The notes below the pieces were generated by a model. The model was given only the letters and a program-made list of their open reading frames with translations. It was not told where the DNA came from and did not search any database. A stretch of DNA of 60,182 bases from Candidatus Terraquivivens tikiterensis. Lineage in GTDB: Archaea > Thermoproteota > Nitrososphaeria_A > Caldarchaeales > Wolframiiraptoraceae. A program made the position numbers and the translations under genes. The stretch spans positions 101,236 to 161,417 of the forward strand of contig NDWU01000001.1 of assembly GCA_003056285.1 (NCBI GenBank), given 5' to 3'. Positions 43,323 through 49,579 of the stretch are shown in pieces (position 1 is the first letter of the stretch; every line of letters begins with the position of its first letter).

Positions 43323-44396
43323 TCAGAGCAAGCCCATCTGTATCAGAACGGCTACGACAAGAAGGTTCAGGAGCGCTAACGGTACAAGGAACCTCCAGCC
43401 AATGTCTAGCAGCTTGTCCAAGGTTACCCTCGGAAAAACACCCCTCAGAAGGAGCACCAATGAAACGACTATCAGGCTTTTTAGTATAAGCCAGAAAGGC
43501 CCTAGGACGCTCCCGGGTAACCATGGTATAGAGGGGCCGTTCCAACCTCCTAGGAAGAGGAGTGCGGTAAGTATAGCAACAGCGTCAAGCTTTATGTAGG
43601 CTGCAAGGTAGAAGAGAGCGAAGTAAGCGCCGCTGTACTCCGTCTGCCACCCGCTCACAAGCTCCTGCTCGGCTGTCGGTATGTCGAACGGGACCCTCTC
43701 CACCTCGGCGATGGCTGTTATCAAAAACACGAGAAATCCCAGGAAGGCTGGTATTATGAAGGGAAAACCTGCCTGAGCCTCCACTATCCTCTCCAGGTTA
43801 AACGACCTTGCCGCCAGGGTTACGCTGGCAAGCGCCAAGAAGAACGGGACCTCGTAGGAGAAAACCTGGAAGGCGAACCTGACCATTCCGATAAAGCTGT
43901 ACTTGCTCCTCGATGCCCATCCTGCAACGAGTATCGTTATAGGCGTGACAGCCAGCACGACGAAGACGAGCAGGAGGCCGATATCGGAAGGGTATATCAC
44001 CCAGCCTGGGCCGAGGGGCAGGAAGGCAAACGTAAGCATCGAAAGGGCGCAGCAAAGGACCGGCATGGATACGTAAAGCGGCTTTACTGCCTTCTCCGGC
44101 ACTATCAGCTCCTTGGACAAAAGCTTAACGGCGTCAGCCACTAGCTGGAGGAGGCCAGCATACTTGCCCACGTGTAGGGGGCCTAACCTCACCATCACCC
44201 TGGCCAGCAGTTTTCTCTCGAACCATATCGTGAACATGACGAACGTAAGTATGAAGAGTATCCCAGGGAATATGATCGGCTTTATGAAGGCGTCGCTATG
44301 TAGGAAGAGTATGAAATCCCTCAACGGCTGAGGGAGCTCCTTAAGGAAGTTGGCAGCAGCCCTTGCGTACTCCTGGATGATCTGTGGCGGCAACAT
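43323..44396 (-). CDS. nuoH: NADH-quinone oxidoreductase-type subunit H
   Basis: Membrane subunit that links the peripheral arm to the proton-pumping arm and forms the quinone tunnel; about 357 residues, eight or more helices. Landmarks: FERKLLARVMVRLGPLHVGKYAGLLQLVADAVKLLSKE and AEVERVPFDIPTAEQELVSGWQTEYSG, both strongly conserved. GAGGTGAGC precedes the ATG at 44396 (an in-frame GTG lies two codons earlier). Last gene of the leftward complex I cluster; six bases separate it from the end of the nuoA gene. Confidence 0.95.
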   Translation of the reverse strand: MLPPQIIQEYARAAANFLKELPQPLRDFILFLHSDAFIKPIIFPGILFILTFVMFTIWFERKLLARVMVRLGPLHVGKYAGLLQLVADAVKLLSKELIVPEKAVKPLYVSMPVLCCALSMLTFAFLPLGPGWVIYPSDIGLLLVFVVLAVTPITILVAGWASRSKYSFIGMVRFAFQVFSYEVPFFLALASVTLAARSFNLERIVEAQAGFPFIIPAFLGFLVFLITAIAEVERVPFDIPTAEQELVSGWQTEYSGAYFALFYLAAYIKLDAVAILTALLFLGGWNGPSIPWLPGSVLGPFWLILKSLIVVSLVLLLRGVFPRVTLDKLLDIGWRFLVPLALLNLLVVAVLIQMGLL

Positions 44397-44403
44397 GCTC
44401 ACC

Positions 44404-44757
44404 TCATATCCTCTGAATCAGCCTCTTTAAGTTCATGCTGGCGAATATCGATGAGAAAGCCAAGATTGCCAGGAAGACTGTCACCCTCATTAGAGCATCC
44501 GGCACCTCGAAGACGTAGAACAGGGATACCAAAACGAGCACGGCCACGACGGCGTAGACGACGTAGATCAGCAGGTAAGGAAAGTACTGTACGGGGAATT
44601 GTAGCGTACGCCACTCGAATGGTTTTTGGCCGCACTCGAACGTGAGGACCTTCGTCCTCTTACGCCTTCCATGGCTCAGCAGCATTCCCAGGAGGACGAA
44701 GAGCAACGATAACAAGAAGGCCGCCACGACGAATACGAGAAAAGCTTCCATGCCCAT
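44404..44757 (-). CDS. nuoA: NADH-quinone oxidoreductase-type subunit A
   Basis: 117 residues, three transmembrane helices. The conserved loop TFECGQKPFEWRTLQFPVQYF (family pattern Y/F-E-C-G-x-x-P) and the FEVPDA loop before the last helix identify NuoA. In most complex I operons nuoA is first; here it is next to last, just before nuoH. Confidence 0.9.
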   Translation of the reverse strand: MGMEAFLVFVVAAFLLSLLFVLLGMLLSHGRRKRTKVLTFECGQKPFEWRTLQFPVQYFPYLLIYVVYAVVAVLVLVSLFYVFEVPDALMRVTVFLAILAFSSIFASMNLKRLIQRI

Positions 44758-44775
44758 GGACGGCTACCCCTAGGC

Positions 44776-45123
44776 TCAGAGCCCCCGCATCCTCTTAACT
44801 TTAAACTCTAGGCCGGTCGATATTATGTTAGCCCTTACTATCGCGTAGACGGCCTGGCTGACTAGGTGGGCATGCGTCTCCGTGTCTAGCTTACCGCAGG
44901 CCTGCCTGTACGTTGAGTATATGCTGTTTACGTTGCTCCTCAGATCCTCGAAGCCCGGGAGCTCCTTGCCTTCCAGGGCTTCGCAGAGACGCTGCGCCTT
45001 CTCGACGAAGGCGTAATCCTCGCTCTCGACGAACGCCCTCAAGCTCTCGAGGATATCCCTTATCCCATCCCTTAACCTAAGCAAACCCTCCCTGAGCCTA
45101 AGGGGTTGGGCCTTCTCGGCCAT
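44776..45123 (-). CDS. Unrecognised helical protein inside the nuo cluster
   Basis: About 115 residues, almost wholly helical (LRLREGLLRLRDGIRDILES, FVEKAQRLCEALEGKEL, DTETHAHLVSQAVYAIVRAN). No membrane segment and no cofactor motif. Its ATG overlaps the nuoI stop (TGATG), so it is translated with the complex. It could be an accessory or assembly subunit. I know of no matching family. Confidence 0.6.
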   Translation of the reverse strand: MAEKAQPLRLREGLLRLRDGIRDILESLRAFVESEDYAFVEKAQRLCEALEGKELPGFEDLRSNVNSIYSTYRQACGKLDTETHAHLVSQAVYAIVRANIISTGLEFKVKRMRGL

Positions 45124-46046
45124 CACCAAACCAGCCTCCTGAAGATCATCCTCATCCTCTCTATCATGTTAAGCTCAGGGGGGACGCCGGTAACGTTAAA
45201 ATCTTCTGGCCTCTTGGCAAGCATCGTCGGCGTGTACACAAGCTCCCTCCTGCTTGTGGACGAGATCTCGAACTCGCCCGTCATCTCTAGAGCCTGGAAA
45301 GGGCAAGCGTCGACGCAGAAACCGCACATCACGCACCTTCCGTAGTCGATAGAGGGGAACAGGGACCTCCTGTTCTGCTTGTATCCCATTTCTATCTTGC
45401 GGACGAGGACGTTAAACGTAAAGTCCTGCCTAGAGAGCTCAACGGAAGCGGACTCCGTTGCCGCATCGAGCTTCCTAAGCTCCCAGCCTGCTGCCTTAAG
45501 TTTCTCTACGGCAGGGTAGACCTTCTGGTGGAGGACCTCGACGGCCCTCGCGTCAAAAATAGGCTCGCGGTTCAACCTAATCTCGTAGCCTCCCTCAACC
45601 TTTGTAACCTGCCTCGTGTCCGTTGGAGCCCAGAAGAAAGAGCTGAGGGAGTTGTACTCGATCCTCCCTGGCTCGGCCGAGAATGAGCCCACGAGGGCCT
45701 CCACTGCCTCCACGATTCCCGGCATTGATCTTTTAAAGGATTCGTAGCATCCCTCGTCCAGGACGATGAGGACGTCGAACCCATGGGTCATCGTGATCGC
45801 CTCCGCTATGTTCTGGCACGTTAAGTCGCAGCTGCCGCAGCCAGTGCACTTTTCCATGTAGAGTACGTGCCTTCCCTTGCTGCCTGGATAGCCTATGCCG
45901 GCCTTTGGGTCGAACCTGTAACCCTCCTCTGGCAGGTTCGGGACCTTCTCGTACGGCCACTTCACCGTGTATGGCTTTAGGAAGACGTGCTTAAGCCCAG
46001 AGTATACAGGCATCAGCGTCCTCTTGATAGCTTGCGCTATGCCCAT
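45123..46046 (-). CDS. nuoI: NuoI-like 2[4Fe-4S] subunit with a large insertion
   Basis: About 307 residues from the ATG at 46046 (AGGTGAG seven bases upstream). Two cluster motifs are intact: CTGCGSCDLTC (C67, 70, 73, 77) and CVMCGFCVDACP (C238, 241, 244, 248). The interval between them is about 160 residues instead of about 40 in ordinary NuoI: an extra domain (GFDVLIVLDEGCYESFKRSM, EIRLNREPIFDARAVEVLHQ, YPAVEKLKAAGWELRK) sits there. The first motif also lacks the usual CP (C-Q instead). It carries electrons from the quinone-side clusters. Overlaps the end of nuoD. Confidence 0.85.
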   Translation of the reverse strand: MGIAQAIKRTLMPVYSGLKHVFLKPYTVKWPYEKVPNLPEEGYRFDPKAGIGYPGSKGRHVLYMEKCTGCGSCDLTCQNIAEAITMTHGFDVLIVLDEGCYESFKRSMPGIVEAVEALVGSFSAEPGRIEYNSLSSFFWAPTDTRQVTKVEGGYEIRLNREPIFDARAVEVLHQKVYPAVEKLKAAGWELRKLDAATESASVELSRQDFTFNVLVRKIEMGYKQNRRSLFPSIDYGRCVMCGFCVDACPFQALEMTGEFEISSTSRRELVYTPTMLAKRPEDFNVTGVPPELNMIERMRMIFRRLVW

Positions 46047-46051
46047 GCGGC

Positions 46052-47266
46052 TCACCTGTCGCACTCTACCGGCCAGTAATTCAGCGACCAGTATATTATC
46101 GGTATGTCCGCAACCCTAACGTCCCTGATAAGGTGGGGCAGCGCTATGAGGTTCCTGAAGGACGGCGAGCATATCTTCACCCTGTACGGTCTGTCCGTAC
46201 CGTCGCTCCTGATGTAGAAGGAGCACTGCCCCCTGGCAGCCTCTGCGCTGGCGAAGACCTCGCCGGCAGGAACCCTTATCGAGACCGGATGCTGCTTTAG
46301 CTTTACGGGCCCATCCGGCATCTGCTCGATTGCCTGCTCGATTATCCTGACGCTCTCCTTCATCTCGTAGTACCCTACCATCATCCTTGAGTAGCTGTCG
46401 CAGCCATCCATGGTCGGTACGTTGAACTTGATGTACGGGTACGCGTCGTACGGCTCGTCTATCCTCGTATCCGACCTCACGCCCGAGCCCCTCAGGACTG
46501 GACCGACCACGCCCAGGGATACGGCATCTTCCCTCCTTAGGACGCCTACGCCCTTCGTTCTGTATATGAATATAGAGCTGTCGAGGAGCATCCGATAGTA
46601 CTCGTCGAGCCTGGTGTCGAAGAATTCGCACACGGCAAGGGCGTACCTACGGAAGTCCTCGGGCACCTCGCCGCCGTAATCCCTTCCAAGCATCATGCGG
46701 TAGTACCTCCTGAATTCCTTCACGAGCTCCTTGGGGACCTTGGCCGGTGCGTCGTTCCTTACGCCGCCTGGGACGAAGTACGAGTGCGTTATCCTCTGGC
46801 CGCCTATAAGCTGCGTCAGGTCTACGAGGTACTCCCGGTCGCCGAAGCACCACATGTACATAGTGGCGTGGCCGGCGAACACGCCCATCAGGCCAAGCCA
46901 GTAAAGGTGGCTACATATTCTCTGAAGCTCAGCCATTATGACCCTAAGGTACTTCGCCCTCTCCGGAGGCTCTACACCCATGAGCCTCTCAACCGCCAGA
47001 ACGTATGGGTAAACCATTCCTGCGGCGTCGAGTATCGCCGGCCTCTCAAGGTGGGGTATGTTCGTTATCCATGTCTTGTACTCGCACATCTTCTCCTCGC
47101 CCCTGTGTACGAAGCCCGGGTCAGGGTCGCACCTAACGACCGTGTCGCCTAAGACCGTGATTACCATCCTAAAGTGTCCTGTCCCCGGATGCTGCGGCCC
47201 CATGCTGAACGTGAGCGTCGGCCCGACCTCGTATACCTCTACCGATTTGACCTCCTCCGCGACCAT
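46052..47266 (-). CDS. nuoD: NADH-quinone oxidoreductase-type subunit D
   Basis: Quinone-site subunit, 404 residues. Conserved: FSMGPQHPGTGHFRMVI at the N-terminus, PDPGFVHRGEEKMCEYKTW, AELQRICSHLYWLG, RLDEYYRML, GVLRREDAVSLGVVGPVLRGSG and, at the end, DIPIIYWSLNYWPVECDR. The cysteine pairs that hold nickel in the related hydrogenases (RxCGxC and DPCxxC) are absent, so it is a respiratory subunit. Two bases follow the nuoC stop. Confidence 0.95.
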   Translation of the reverse strand: MVAEEVKSVEVYEVGPTLTFSMGPQHPGTGHFRMVITVLGDTVVRCDPDPGFVHRGEEKMCEYKTWITNIPHLERPAILDAAGMVYPYVLAVERLMGVEPPERAKYLRVIMAELQRICSHLYWLGLMGVFAGHATMYMWCFGDREYLVDLTQLIGGQRITHSYFVPGGVRNDAPAKVPKELVKEFRRYYRMMLGRDYGGEVPEDFRRYALAVCEFFDTRLDEYYRMLLDSSIFIYRTKGVGVLRREDAVSLGVVGPVLRGSGVRSDTRIDEPYDAYPYIKFNVPTMDGCDSYSRMMVGYYEMKESVRIIEQAIEQMPDGPVKLKQHPVSIRVPAGEVFASAEAARGQCSFYIRSDGTDRPYRVKICSPSFRNLIALPHLIRDVRVADIPIIYWSLNYWPVECDR

Positions 47267-47267
47267 C

Positions 47268-47777
47268 CTAGCGCTCCCTCCCAGGAACAGCGTAGTCCTT
47301 CCTAAGCGGGGGCTTGTCTGACCAAAACTCGGGTAACAATAGCCTCCTCATGTCCGGGTGCCCCTCGAAGTTGACGCCCAGCATCTCGTACACCTCGCGC
47401 TCATGCATCTCCGCCCCCCTCCAGACGCCGGTCAATGACGGCATGACAGGGTTGGATAGGCTAACCTTCGTTGACAACGAGAACGTCACACCCCTAAGAT
47501 CCTCGGAGGACATGCTGCCTACATGGTAAATGACCTCTAACGCCTCTTGCGGTTTGTCGGGCAACCTCGACAGGTCCACTCCCGTTACGCCCTTTATGTA
47601 ATCCATCGCCCATTCCGATTTTAGGTACTGCGCCACCTCTTTGATGCACTCGGGAGCGACGAGGACCTTCGCTATCTTCTTCGGCTCGATGACCACTTCC
47701 AGAACTTTGTCGCCAAACTTCTTCTTTAGATCGTCCACGATCCTATTCAAAGCCTCCTCCGCTGCCGGCAAGCTCAC
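47268..47777 (-). CDS. nuoC: NADH-quinone oxidoreductase-type subunit C
   Basis: 169 residues. The 30-kDa subunit motif is EMHEREVYEMLGVNFEGHPDMRRLLLPE, followed by KPPLRKDYAVPG. Connects B and D in the peripheral arm. Starts four bases inside the nuoB end. Confidence 0.93.
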   Translation of the reverse strand: MSLPAAEEALNRIVDDLKKKFGDKVLEVVIEPKKIAKVLVAPECIKEVAQYLKSEWAMDYIKGVTGVDLSRLPDKPQEALEVIYHVGSMSSEDLRGVTFSLSTKVSLSNPVMPSLTGVWRGAEMHEREVYEMLGVNFEGHPDMRRLLLPEFWSDKPPLRKDYAVPGRER

Positions 47778-49579
47778 CTAACCACCTCGTTCATTATCTT
47801 GTCCCTAAGCATCAGTATGCCCTGAAAGAGCGTCTCGGGCCTTGGGGGGCATCCGGGTATGTAAACGTCGACGGGCACTATGTCGTCTATGCCTTGGATC
47901 ACGTTGTAGGAGTCCTTCGCGTAGAGCCCGCCGCTTATGGCGCAGTTGTGTACCAGGATGCCTTGCGTAAAGAAGTTGTGGTAATTCTCTACCTCTATAT
48001 CGTAAACTGGCATGAACCTGGCCGGCTCGATCGATTCGACCCTCGCCAAGGCGATCCCACGACCGTTAGCTATCAATCTAGGCCTTTCCGGCAGAACTTT
48101 TTTGAACCCTCGTGAGGCATCGGGCATGCTGTCCCACAGTCTTAATGGCGGGGACTCCGCCGAAGAGCTCACGCAACGCTGCGCCGATGCAAAACTTCGG
48201 CCTTCGATTACGCTATCTTTAATCCCCGTAAACGTCGGGGGAACGCTGATAGACCCGTAGCGGCATGGTTCGACCTGGTCTTCCAGGAGTAGCTTGCTCC
48301 TCGAGCGGGTGCATGCCGAAACCCAAGACCCTACGTAGCCGCCAGAATGTAACGATCCAGCTAAGGGTTGTTCGAGCTGCCGCATAGGCGCCGCGAACGA
48401 CCGCATGGATAGGCGCCCATCGTGGGCGCTGTACACTGGCCGTAAAGCCGCGACCAAGCCTCCCTCCGCCCTGCCCGGAGCATCGGTCCCGGATTCCTGG
48501 CCTGGGAACGGACCCATGGGATCGGCAGGTATCCTCAATAGGCCATCCCGGCCGGCCCTTCTCCCGCCCTCACCAACTTGTAGCCATGCCAACCCATCCG
48601 CGACGATGCCTTGAGGCCTTCCTCGACCGCTACAGGAGGGCGTGTGCGGCCTGCCGCCCCCCTGCTCTCCGAATACGACTATAAGGTCTCCAGGTTTCAG
48701 CATCGATAGCGGCTTCCACACGACGTCCATGCTCGACGCTTCCGGCGGGCTCCTCAGCCAAAGATCCAGCGTCTTGTAACTTATACCTAGCAGGGTTGCC
48801 GCTTGCTTTTTGCTCAGCCCTGCCTTGAGCAAGCGTAGCGCCTCTCTAAAAAGCATGCCCTTCCACGTTTCCACGCTCTCGTAGACAGCAAAAGGATGGT
48901 CTTCAGTCGCCTCGACCTCGTAGGAGCCTGCCCTCAACCTGTAAGTTTGCCTAACGCCGTTATACCTCTTCGCCACGACCCTCGATAGGGCGACCCTGCG
49001 ATTCCGTACGTCGTAAGCGTACACGGTATCGCCTACGTTTACCTCCACGATCTGCTTAACGCCATTAGACGTGTAGACCGTGGCGTTAGCCGGAAGGCAC
49101 GCCCCCATCGCTATGACCCACTTGGGCTCGGGCATCTGGTCGTAGATCAGCCTGACCCTTTGGGCCATCTTCGCCGTGACCGTACCCTCGATCAGTAGAA
49201 CGTCCGATTGTCTCAAGGAGCCGACGGCCGTGAGCCAGCCGAACCTTTCGGGGTCGTACCTTGGCCCGCTCAAGGCCGCGAACTCTACGGAGCAGCATGC
49301 AGTCGTGAGGTGAACCGGCCACATCGAGCAGATCCTACTCCAGTTTATTATGTACTTGATGAGCGACAGGTTCTTCAGCTTGTAGATGACGTACTTCAGC
49401 CCTCCCTTCCCCTCCTCGTAAACGCGCCCAAGCTTGTACCTCCTCAGTACGTCCTTAACATCGCCCCTCGGCACGACCTCCTCCTCGACGGATTCTAACA
49501 CCGTCTTTGAGCTGCCCAAGCTGTAACAGAAGGTGCCAGGCTTAATGTGAAAACTTTTCAAAGGGTTTTTGTGAATCAA
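47774..49579 (-). CDS. nuoB: NADH-quinone oxidoreductase-type subunit B, interrupted by an intein
   Basis: 601 residues before splicing, 216 after. The extein is a normal NuoB: SMWPVHLTTACCSVEFAALSGPRYDPERFG, GTVTAKMAQRVRLIYDQMPEPKWVIAMGA, then CAISGGLYAKDSYNVIQGID and VPVDVYIPGCPPRPETLFQGI. The four ligands of cluster N2 are the CC pair, the Cys after MGA and the Cys in PGCPP. The intein separates MGA from its cysteine, so the complex cannot bind N2 until splicing. Starts with TTG at 49579; a TATA-like ATTTAAATAC at 49617-49627 stands upstream. First gene of the leftward nuo cluster. Subunits J-N, L, M are not in the window. Confidence 0.95.
   Translation of the reverse strand: MIHKNPLKSFHIKPGTFCYSLGSSKTVLESVEEEVVPRGDVKDVLRRYKLGRVYEEGKGGLKYVIYKLKNLSLIKYIINWSRICSMWPVHLTTACCSVEFAALSGPRYDPERFGWLTAVGSLRQSDVLLIEGTVTAKMAQRVRLIYDQMPEPKWVIAMGACLPANATVYTSNGVKQIVEVNVGDTVYAYDVRNRRVALSRVVAKRYNGVRQTYRLRAGSYEVEATEDHPFAVYESVETWKGMLFREALRLLKAGLSKKQAATLLGISYKTLDLWLRSPPEASSMDVVWKPLSMLKPGDLIVVFGEQGGGRPHTPSCSGRGRPQGIVADGLAWLQVGEGGRRAGRDGLLRIPADPMGPFPGQESGTDAPGRAEGGLVAALRPVYSAHDGRLSMRSFAAPMRQLEQPLAGSLHSGGYVGSWVSACTRSRSKLLLEDQVEPCRYGSISVPPTFTGIKDSVIEGRSFASAQRCVSSSAESPPLRLWDSMPDASRGFKKVLPERPRLIANGRGIALARVESIEPARFMPVYDIEVENYHNFFTQGILVHNCAISGGLYAKDSYNVIQGIDDIVPVDVYIPGCPPRPETLFQGILMLRDKIMNEVVR
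47945..49099 (-). other. NuoB intein (385 aa), splicing motifs intact
   Basis: Intein residues 161-545 of the precursor. Block A: Cys1 in CLPANATVYTSNGVKQIVEV, with VNVGDTVYAYD. Block B: VEATEDHPF (T-x-x-H). A KPGDLIVVFGE strand closes the N-terminal splicing half. Blocks F/G: MPVYDIEVENYHNFFTQGIL ending VHN, with Cys+1 of the extein. All catalytic positions are present. Between are a helix-turn-helix (LSKKQAATLLGISYKTLDLW) and about 200 residues rich in Gly, Pro, Arg and Ser without LAGLIDADG motifs, so the homing endonuclease is lost or unrecognisable. Confidence 0.93.

Follow-up and report, generated by a model that had tools for sequence, protein, structure and literature searches.

A predicted class 1 intein carrying a dead homing endonuclease before an iron-sulfur ligand cysteine of NuoB in Candidatus Terraquivivens tikiterensis

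Most of the catalogued inteins known to us sit in proteins of DNA metabolism. In the hot-spring archaeon Candidatus Terraquivivens tikiterensis, within the 60,182-nucleotide stretch of DNA analyzed here (the window), an intein-like insert instead interrupts NuoB of respiratory complex I, between MGA and CAISGG and directly before a conserved cysteine. This raises the question of what the insert is, and of whether its position beside a likely iron-sulfur ligand reflects regulation of complex I or the history of a mobile element. We consider it very probable that the insert is a constitutively splicing former homing element that is held at an invariant NuoB site, and that it is not a redox switch.

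The features of the locus are collected in Table 1. The NuoB reading frame continues over 601 codons with no stop or frameshift, and NuoB models match both flanks of the insert (TIGR01957, E=8e-55, in two stretches). The gene heads a complex I cluster in the order B, C, D, I, an unmatched ORF, A and H.

Table 1. Features of the nuoB locus (positions refer to the window; slashes in the table and text mark splice junctions).
Feature	Position	Strand	Extent and motifs	Basis
nuoB ORF with in-frame intein	47774..49579	-	601 codons, TTG start	
NuoB N-extein	49100..49579	-	codons 1-160, ending ...KWVIAMGA	TIGR01957, NF005012, uninterrupted homologues
Tandem Cys95-Cys96, first two N2 ligands	49292..49297	-		
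Predicted intein	47945..49099	-	codons 161-545, 385 aa, Cys1...His-Asn	PF14890, TIGR01443, TIGR01445; empty sites
N-terminal splicing region	48875..49099	-	codons 161-235; block A Cys1, block B T-E-D-H	conservation
Helix-turn-helix (HTH) insert and linker	48671..48874	-	codons 236-303	near-cut-off match to PF13384
HTH core	48752-48844	-	codons 246-276	
LAGLIDADG homing endonuclease relic	48065..48670	-	codons 304-505	identity drop, flat codon positions, no stops
Degenerate first LAGLIDADG motif	48563..48592	-	LAWLQVGEGG (relatives LAW[IL]xGVYxGDG), 3-residue deletion	
Degenerate second LAGLIDADG motif	48332..48364	-	LAGSLHSGGYV (relatives IAGxxESDG), catalytic Asp to Gly	
C-terminal splicing region	47945..48064	-	codons 506-545; blocks F and G, VHN end	TIGR01443, E=1.4e-9
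Cys+1 codon, third N2 [4Fe-4S] ligand	47942..47944	-	residue 546	2fug_6 offsets and established ligand roles
NuoB C-extein	47777..47944	-	codons 546-601	NuoB model match
Cys577, fourth N2 ligand	47849..47851	-	PGCPP	
Complex I cluster downstream of NuoB	43323..47777	-		
NuoC	47268-47777	-		
NuoD	46052-47266	-		
NuoI	45123-46064	-	CxxCxxCxxxCP uninterrupted	
ORF without Pfam match	44776-45129	-		
NuoA	44404-44757	-		
NuoH	43323-44402	-		

By its motifs and profile matches, the insert is predicted to be a full-length class 1 intein. It matches Intein_splicing (PF14890, E=1.4e-10, 41.6 bits against a cut-off of 35.8), intein_Cterm (TIGR01443, as given in Table 1) and intein_Nterm (TIGR01445, E=1e-5). 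The first residue, Cys161, is Cys1, and is kept in all same-site relatives in which the start is present; the TxxH of block B is found as T-E-D-H within ...EVEATEDHPFAV; and blocks F and G run to a His-Asn end followed by a nucleophile at +1, VYDIEVENYHNFF...LVHN/C. In the sequence alignment, the motifs TEDH, YDIEV, HNFF and VHN/C are retained together with Cys1, and the N-terminal splicing region is 52-59% identical among three lineages. The best PDB matches of the structure model in Foldseek are inteins and Hint domains (probability 1.00), but with low TM-scores, and the model itself has a mean pLDDT of 42.7 and is weak outside residues 1-143; the sequence profiles point the same way as these matches. 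The original prediction had described a complete intein with exactly these boundaries and had proposed a search against intein profiles, and on both points it held up; it made no mention of the endonuclease relic or of the HTH insert, which are described below.

In all five congeneric genomes, MGA/CAISGG is intact and free of interruption at the same base, as it is in many other members of the order; the DNA flanking the insertion aligns base for base with these empty sites. The five congeners are identical at 136-139 of the 141 compared positions of the NuoB extein, and their C-exteins are 93-98% identical to that of T. tikiterensis. Intein-free alleles, which had been proposed as a check, exist among congeners and other members of the order.

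To place the insertion relative to the cofactor, we used phmmer, which aligns residues 88-227 of a congener NuoB to residues 24-161 of Thermus Nqo6 (2fug_6). The mapping of the N2 ligands rests on the offsets of this alignment, by which the tandem CC corresponds to positions 45/46, MGAC to 111 and PGCP to 140; Cys 45/46, 111 and 140 of Nqo6 are established as the four N2 ligands of complex I. Spliced NuoB would thus have all four (CC, MGxC and PGC; Cys95, 96, 546 and 577), and the +1 cysteine corresponds to Cys111, which agrees with its earlier assignment as the third N2 ligand. Since this ligand is also the predicted splicing nucleophile, splicing would have to precede assembly of N2, and the earlier claim that the unspliced precursor cannot form the cluster appears sound by the same reasoning.

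That splicing occurs, as well as its chemistry, order and rate, we infer from the sequence. As a class 1 intein, the element would remove itself from NuoB after translation: Cys1 would form a thioester with Ala160, Cys546 at +1 would attack this thioester, the terminal Asn would cyclize, and MGA would be joined to CAISGG with restoration of the third N2 ligand. The element would once have been mobile, with a LAGLIDADG endonuclease cleaving intein-free nuoB alleles at the invariant site. Once this endonuclease had decayed, all that remained would be the machinery for splicing and an open frame, kept because the downstream extein is needed. Inteins require one of Cys, Ser or Thr at +1 and tend to survive at the codons under the strongest conservation, which in Fe-S proteins are those of ligand cysteines. 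The position before an iron-sulfur cysteine probably reflects site choice and retention, in that a +1 nucleophile would be found at the most conserved codons, where exact removal alone would be tolerated.

The same site is occupied in other genomes. Candidatus Calditenuaceae archaeon HR02 (G032; locus L006, within L025), a member of the same order (Caldarchaeales), carries an intein of 410 aa with both LAGLIDADG motifs at the identical NuoB position, and in family f59, which belongs to a different class of the same phylum, same-site inteins are found in six genomes (G337, G524, G577, G639, G724 and G538). The original prediction was right that the insertion is rare, but it is not unique to this genome. 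Presence at the site is sporadic, since only two of 44 genomes of the host organism's own class have an intein there (a third match in this class proved to be a SufB intein); the same search found no NuoB intein in 81 genomes of another class, and a contig scan with two narrow patterns returned HR02 as the sole NuoB intein. Viral contigs, considered as donors, gave short intein-block matches only and no full-length relative. Comparing the intein and NuoB phylogenies was likewise set aside as a test of transfer, support being too low at the key node; in the intein tree, the T. tikiterensis/HR02 node is weakly supported.

Because inteins occupy the same site in HR02 and in the six f59 genomes, the insertion is not explained by misassembly, which had been named as an outcome that would overturn the prediction. 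Although the T. tikiterensis genome is a draft of 39 contigs, the insertion is exactly in frame, NuoC, NuoD and NuoI follow in order, and one of the independent same-site genomes (G337) is a single contig. We regard misassembly or contamination as scarcely conceivable.

The endonuclease of the T. tikiterensis intein is dead, while its splicing blocks are still under constraint. HR02, G337 and G639 have both LAGLIDADG motifs with their acidic catalytic residues; in T. tikiterensis both motifs are degenerate. Across the splicing regions, identity is 48-59% in all three comparisons among T. tikiterensis, HR02 and G337, whereas in the endonuclease it is 47% between HR02 and G337 and 27% between T. 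tikiterensis and each of them. Inclusion of the endonuclease lengthens the T. tikiterensis branch of the tree from 0.68 to 1.45 and leaves that of HR02 at 0.50 (0.50 without it). Codon-position composition is flat in the relic (p=0.75; both halves are flat), against p=1e-10 for the T. tikiterensis exteins, p=2e-7 for its splicing and HTH parts together and p=2e-7 for the G337 endonuclease; the signal in the HR02 endonuclease is weak (p=0.03). AlphaFold2 confidence was rejected as a test of decay: the intact HR02 endonuclease (two rows) scores equally low, so the structure model does not show decay.

The relic has nevertheless stayed open. Its 202 codons contain no stop, against a mean of 6.5 in shuffled sequences (P=0.00085), and the other two frames contain 8 and 6 stops. 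All gaps in its alignment are whole codons. Compensated frameshifts were considered and rejected, as a frameshift-aware alignment gained 0 at a penalty of 15 and 0.5 at a penalty of 10; decay therefore proceeded by substitution and in-frame gaps. We read this pattern as a relic that probably drifts freely except for its open frame, which selection for the C-extein would preserve. That the frame is kept open suggests that the downstream extein, and splicing with it, are still needed. Decay of the endonuclease could in principle have extended further, such that the intein has also lost splicing, leaving nuoB as a pseudogene or as a source of split products. However, all splicing residues and the codon-position signal of the splicing regions are retained, which contradicts a loss of splicing, and a pseudogene is contradicted by the open 601-codon frame and by the closeness of the C-extein to those of congeners. 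We judge this alternative highly improbable.

Silent sites differ by 44-62% between T. tikiterensis and its congeners, a separation long enough for one acquisition to have been followed by such decay, although a copy that was already dead may have been transferred instead. The HR02 intein has a low GC3 of 0.31-0.42, whereas its exteins have 0.76/0.53, a contrast that would fit recent arrival; in the conserved parts of the T. tikiterensis intein GC3 is 0.66-0.70, closer to its own gene.

Intermediate and terminal states are found among the f59 relatives. In G524 and G724 (L098 and L099), both LAGLIDADG motifs are largely kept with a flat stretch between them (p=0.26 for codon positions in G524), and these endonucleases are apparently half decayed. 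The same-site intein of G538 has no endonuclease, making it a natural mini-intein of 203 aa. Compared by sequence, the empty, intact, half-decayed, fully decayed and deleted states at this one NuoB site would represent a homing cycle.

The least explained feature of the NuoB intein is the HTH insert. HTH_23 (PF13384) matches its core with E=3.9e-5 and 23.8 bits, just below the cut-off of 24.6. The stretch keeps a codon-position signal (p=0.0008 for codons 236-303; p=0.015 for codons 236-284) and is probably still constrained in T. tikiterensis; this insert could belong to the splicing fold itself or have a different role. One such role would be DNA binding, for example in operon autoregulation, by the excised intein or the precursor, with the HTH acting alongside the kept Hint domain. 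Consistent with this, the HTH retains some signal where the adjoining endonuclease has none, and the G538 mini-intein keeps it despite loss of the endonuclease. On the other hand, the HTH is possibly built into the Hint fold or a left-over part of DNA recognition, its Pfam match is under the cut-off, no target site is known, and the corresponding stretch of G524 has no clear codon-position signal. A DNA-binding role seems to us quite unlikely.

We searched about 900 genomes of one phylum for complex I inteins, and predicted inteins were found at four positions in NuoB and NuoI across relatives, all directly before Fe-S ligand cysteines. In the G538 NuoB (L100), which has the mini-intein at the site described here, a further and distinct intein separates the tandem cysteines (LETAC/C...VHN/CSVEV), which are N2 ligands 1 and 2, so that it has a Cys at -1. 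The NuoI of G016, from the same family as T. tikiterensis, has a 367-aa intein (L092:4243-5343) directly before Cys1 of the second CxxCxxCxxxCP, with junctions YGR/C...VHN/CVFC; both LAGLIDADG-like motifs are apparently present in it. In G028, of the same order, a 764-aa NuoI ORF (L106) includes a 371-aa intein directly before Cys3 of the same motif (CGF/C...TSN/CVDACP), and here position -3 is a Cys. ABCE1/RLI of T. tikiterensis and at least four congeners likewise carries an intein, placed before Cys3 of an equivalent 4Fe-4S motif (L091:785-3550, minus strand, in T. tikiterensis; L107, L110, L111 and L112 in congeners). The NuoI and ABCE1 inteins are mutually related (E=1e-33 to 1e-60).

Several further inteins were seen in these genomes. 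In T. tikiterensis, a radical SAM protein intein (L079:1-1917) ends directly before Cys-Cys (VKN/CCAAWFC), and inteins occur in an RtcB-like protein and a glycosyltransferase-like ORF, the latter with a degenerate-looking central part (L089 and L090; hosts named by eye). Three other genomes (G044, G026 and G229; L050, L051 and L052) have inteins in a putative 2-oxoacid:ferredoxin oxidoreductase beta subunit, also named by eye, that share one site (YDNEAYMN/C...VHN/TGIQRSG).

Could the NuoB intein itself be a sensor of redox state or metals, in which an oxidized Cys1 or +1 Cys stops splicing and thereby gates complex I? The original prediction had raised such a response. A disulfide trap in MoaA and metal inhibition are known for other inteins (PMC10663303), the complex I inteins of relatives all precede Fe-S cysteines, with the Cys at -3 in G028 NuoI and at -1 in G538 NuoB, and splicing parts retained after endonuclease loss would suit a useful role. 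But the ten residues upstream of the T. tikiterensis intein (EPKWVIAMGA) include no Cys, nor does any position from -1 to -64; the MoaA-type N-extein Cys next to Cys1 is absent, and the nearest upstream Cys, residue 96, is 65 residues off in sequence, although folding could bring Cys95/96 near Cys1. Cysteines of the intein other than Cys1 are confined to the decayed part, and a NuoB intein is dispensed with in five congeners and in most members of the order. Moreover, the requirement for NuoB is enough to account for the retention of splicing. Responsive splicing at this site thus finds no support in the comparison, and we consider it unlikely. The G028 NuoI and G538 NuoB inteins are better candidates for a MoaA-like redox trap, judging by analogy.

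A broader version would have the inteins at the four Fe-S ligand positions act as condition-dependent checkpoints that gate complex I maturation, the NuoB intein among them having passed from mobile element to host function and retained its HTH to that end. Because a +1 nucleophile and highly conserved codons favour ligand-cysteine sites, however, their repeated use is a pattern and not proof of regulation, and we hold such gating to be very unlikely. The position before an Fe-S cysteine does not by itself imply a regulatory switch; a constitutively splicing former homing element at an invariant site remains our preferred reading.

Several aspects give the locus wider interest. Taken over all relatives, a single enzyme, complex I, bears inteins at four of its ligand cysteines, and the NuoB intein would be an extreme case for splicing regulation, as without splicing no N2 cluster could form. 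Because a natural series exists at one exact NuoB position, the homing cycle and any contribution of the HTH insert to splicing are directly testable. The original prediction knew of no intein at this NuoB site, and the openly accessible papers searched describe no intein in complex I; earlier records may exist in subscription literature or in annotation databases. The element is of a known kind, and for its host protein and the sites concerned the papers searched yielded no report.

Compared with known systems, the NuoB intein shares with class 1 LAGLIDADG inteins the same splicing blocks and an endonuclease between blocks B and F, together with Hint-type fold matches of low TM-score, and differs from them in its NuoB host, its decayed endonuclease and the HTH insert after block B. 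Its closest relatives found outside NuoB are the SufB inteins of two genomes of the same order (G031 and G032). The host there is an Fe-S assembly protein, and the NuoB-intein model matches the G031 SufB intein with E=1.8e-37, most of the match covering the stretch between the start of the linker and the end of the endonuclease; these inteins differ in host and in their +1 residue, which is Ser and not an Fe-S ligand Cys. The Pyrococcus abyssi MoaA intein likewise resides in an Fe-S oxidoreductase and uses Cys1 chemistry, but its redox trap pairs an N-extein Cys with Cys1 (PMC10663303), and the NuoB site has no such Cys nearby. Among the Fe-S proteins of these archaea, Tes (tetraether lipid synthase, NF045703), ABCE1 and NuoI have inteins as well. 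Those of NuoI match the Tes model, and together these inteins form a separate lineage that is distantly similar to the NuoB intein.
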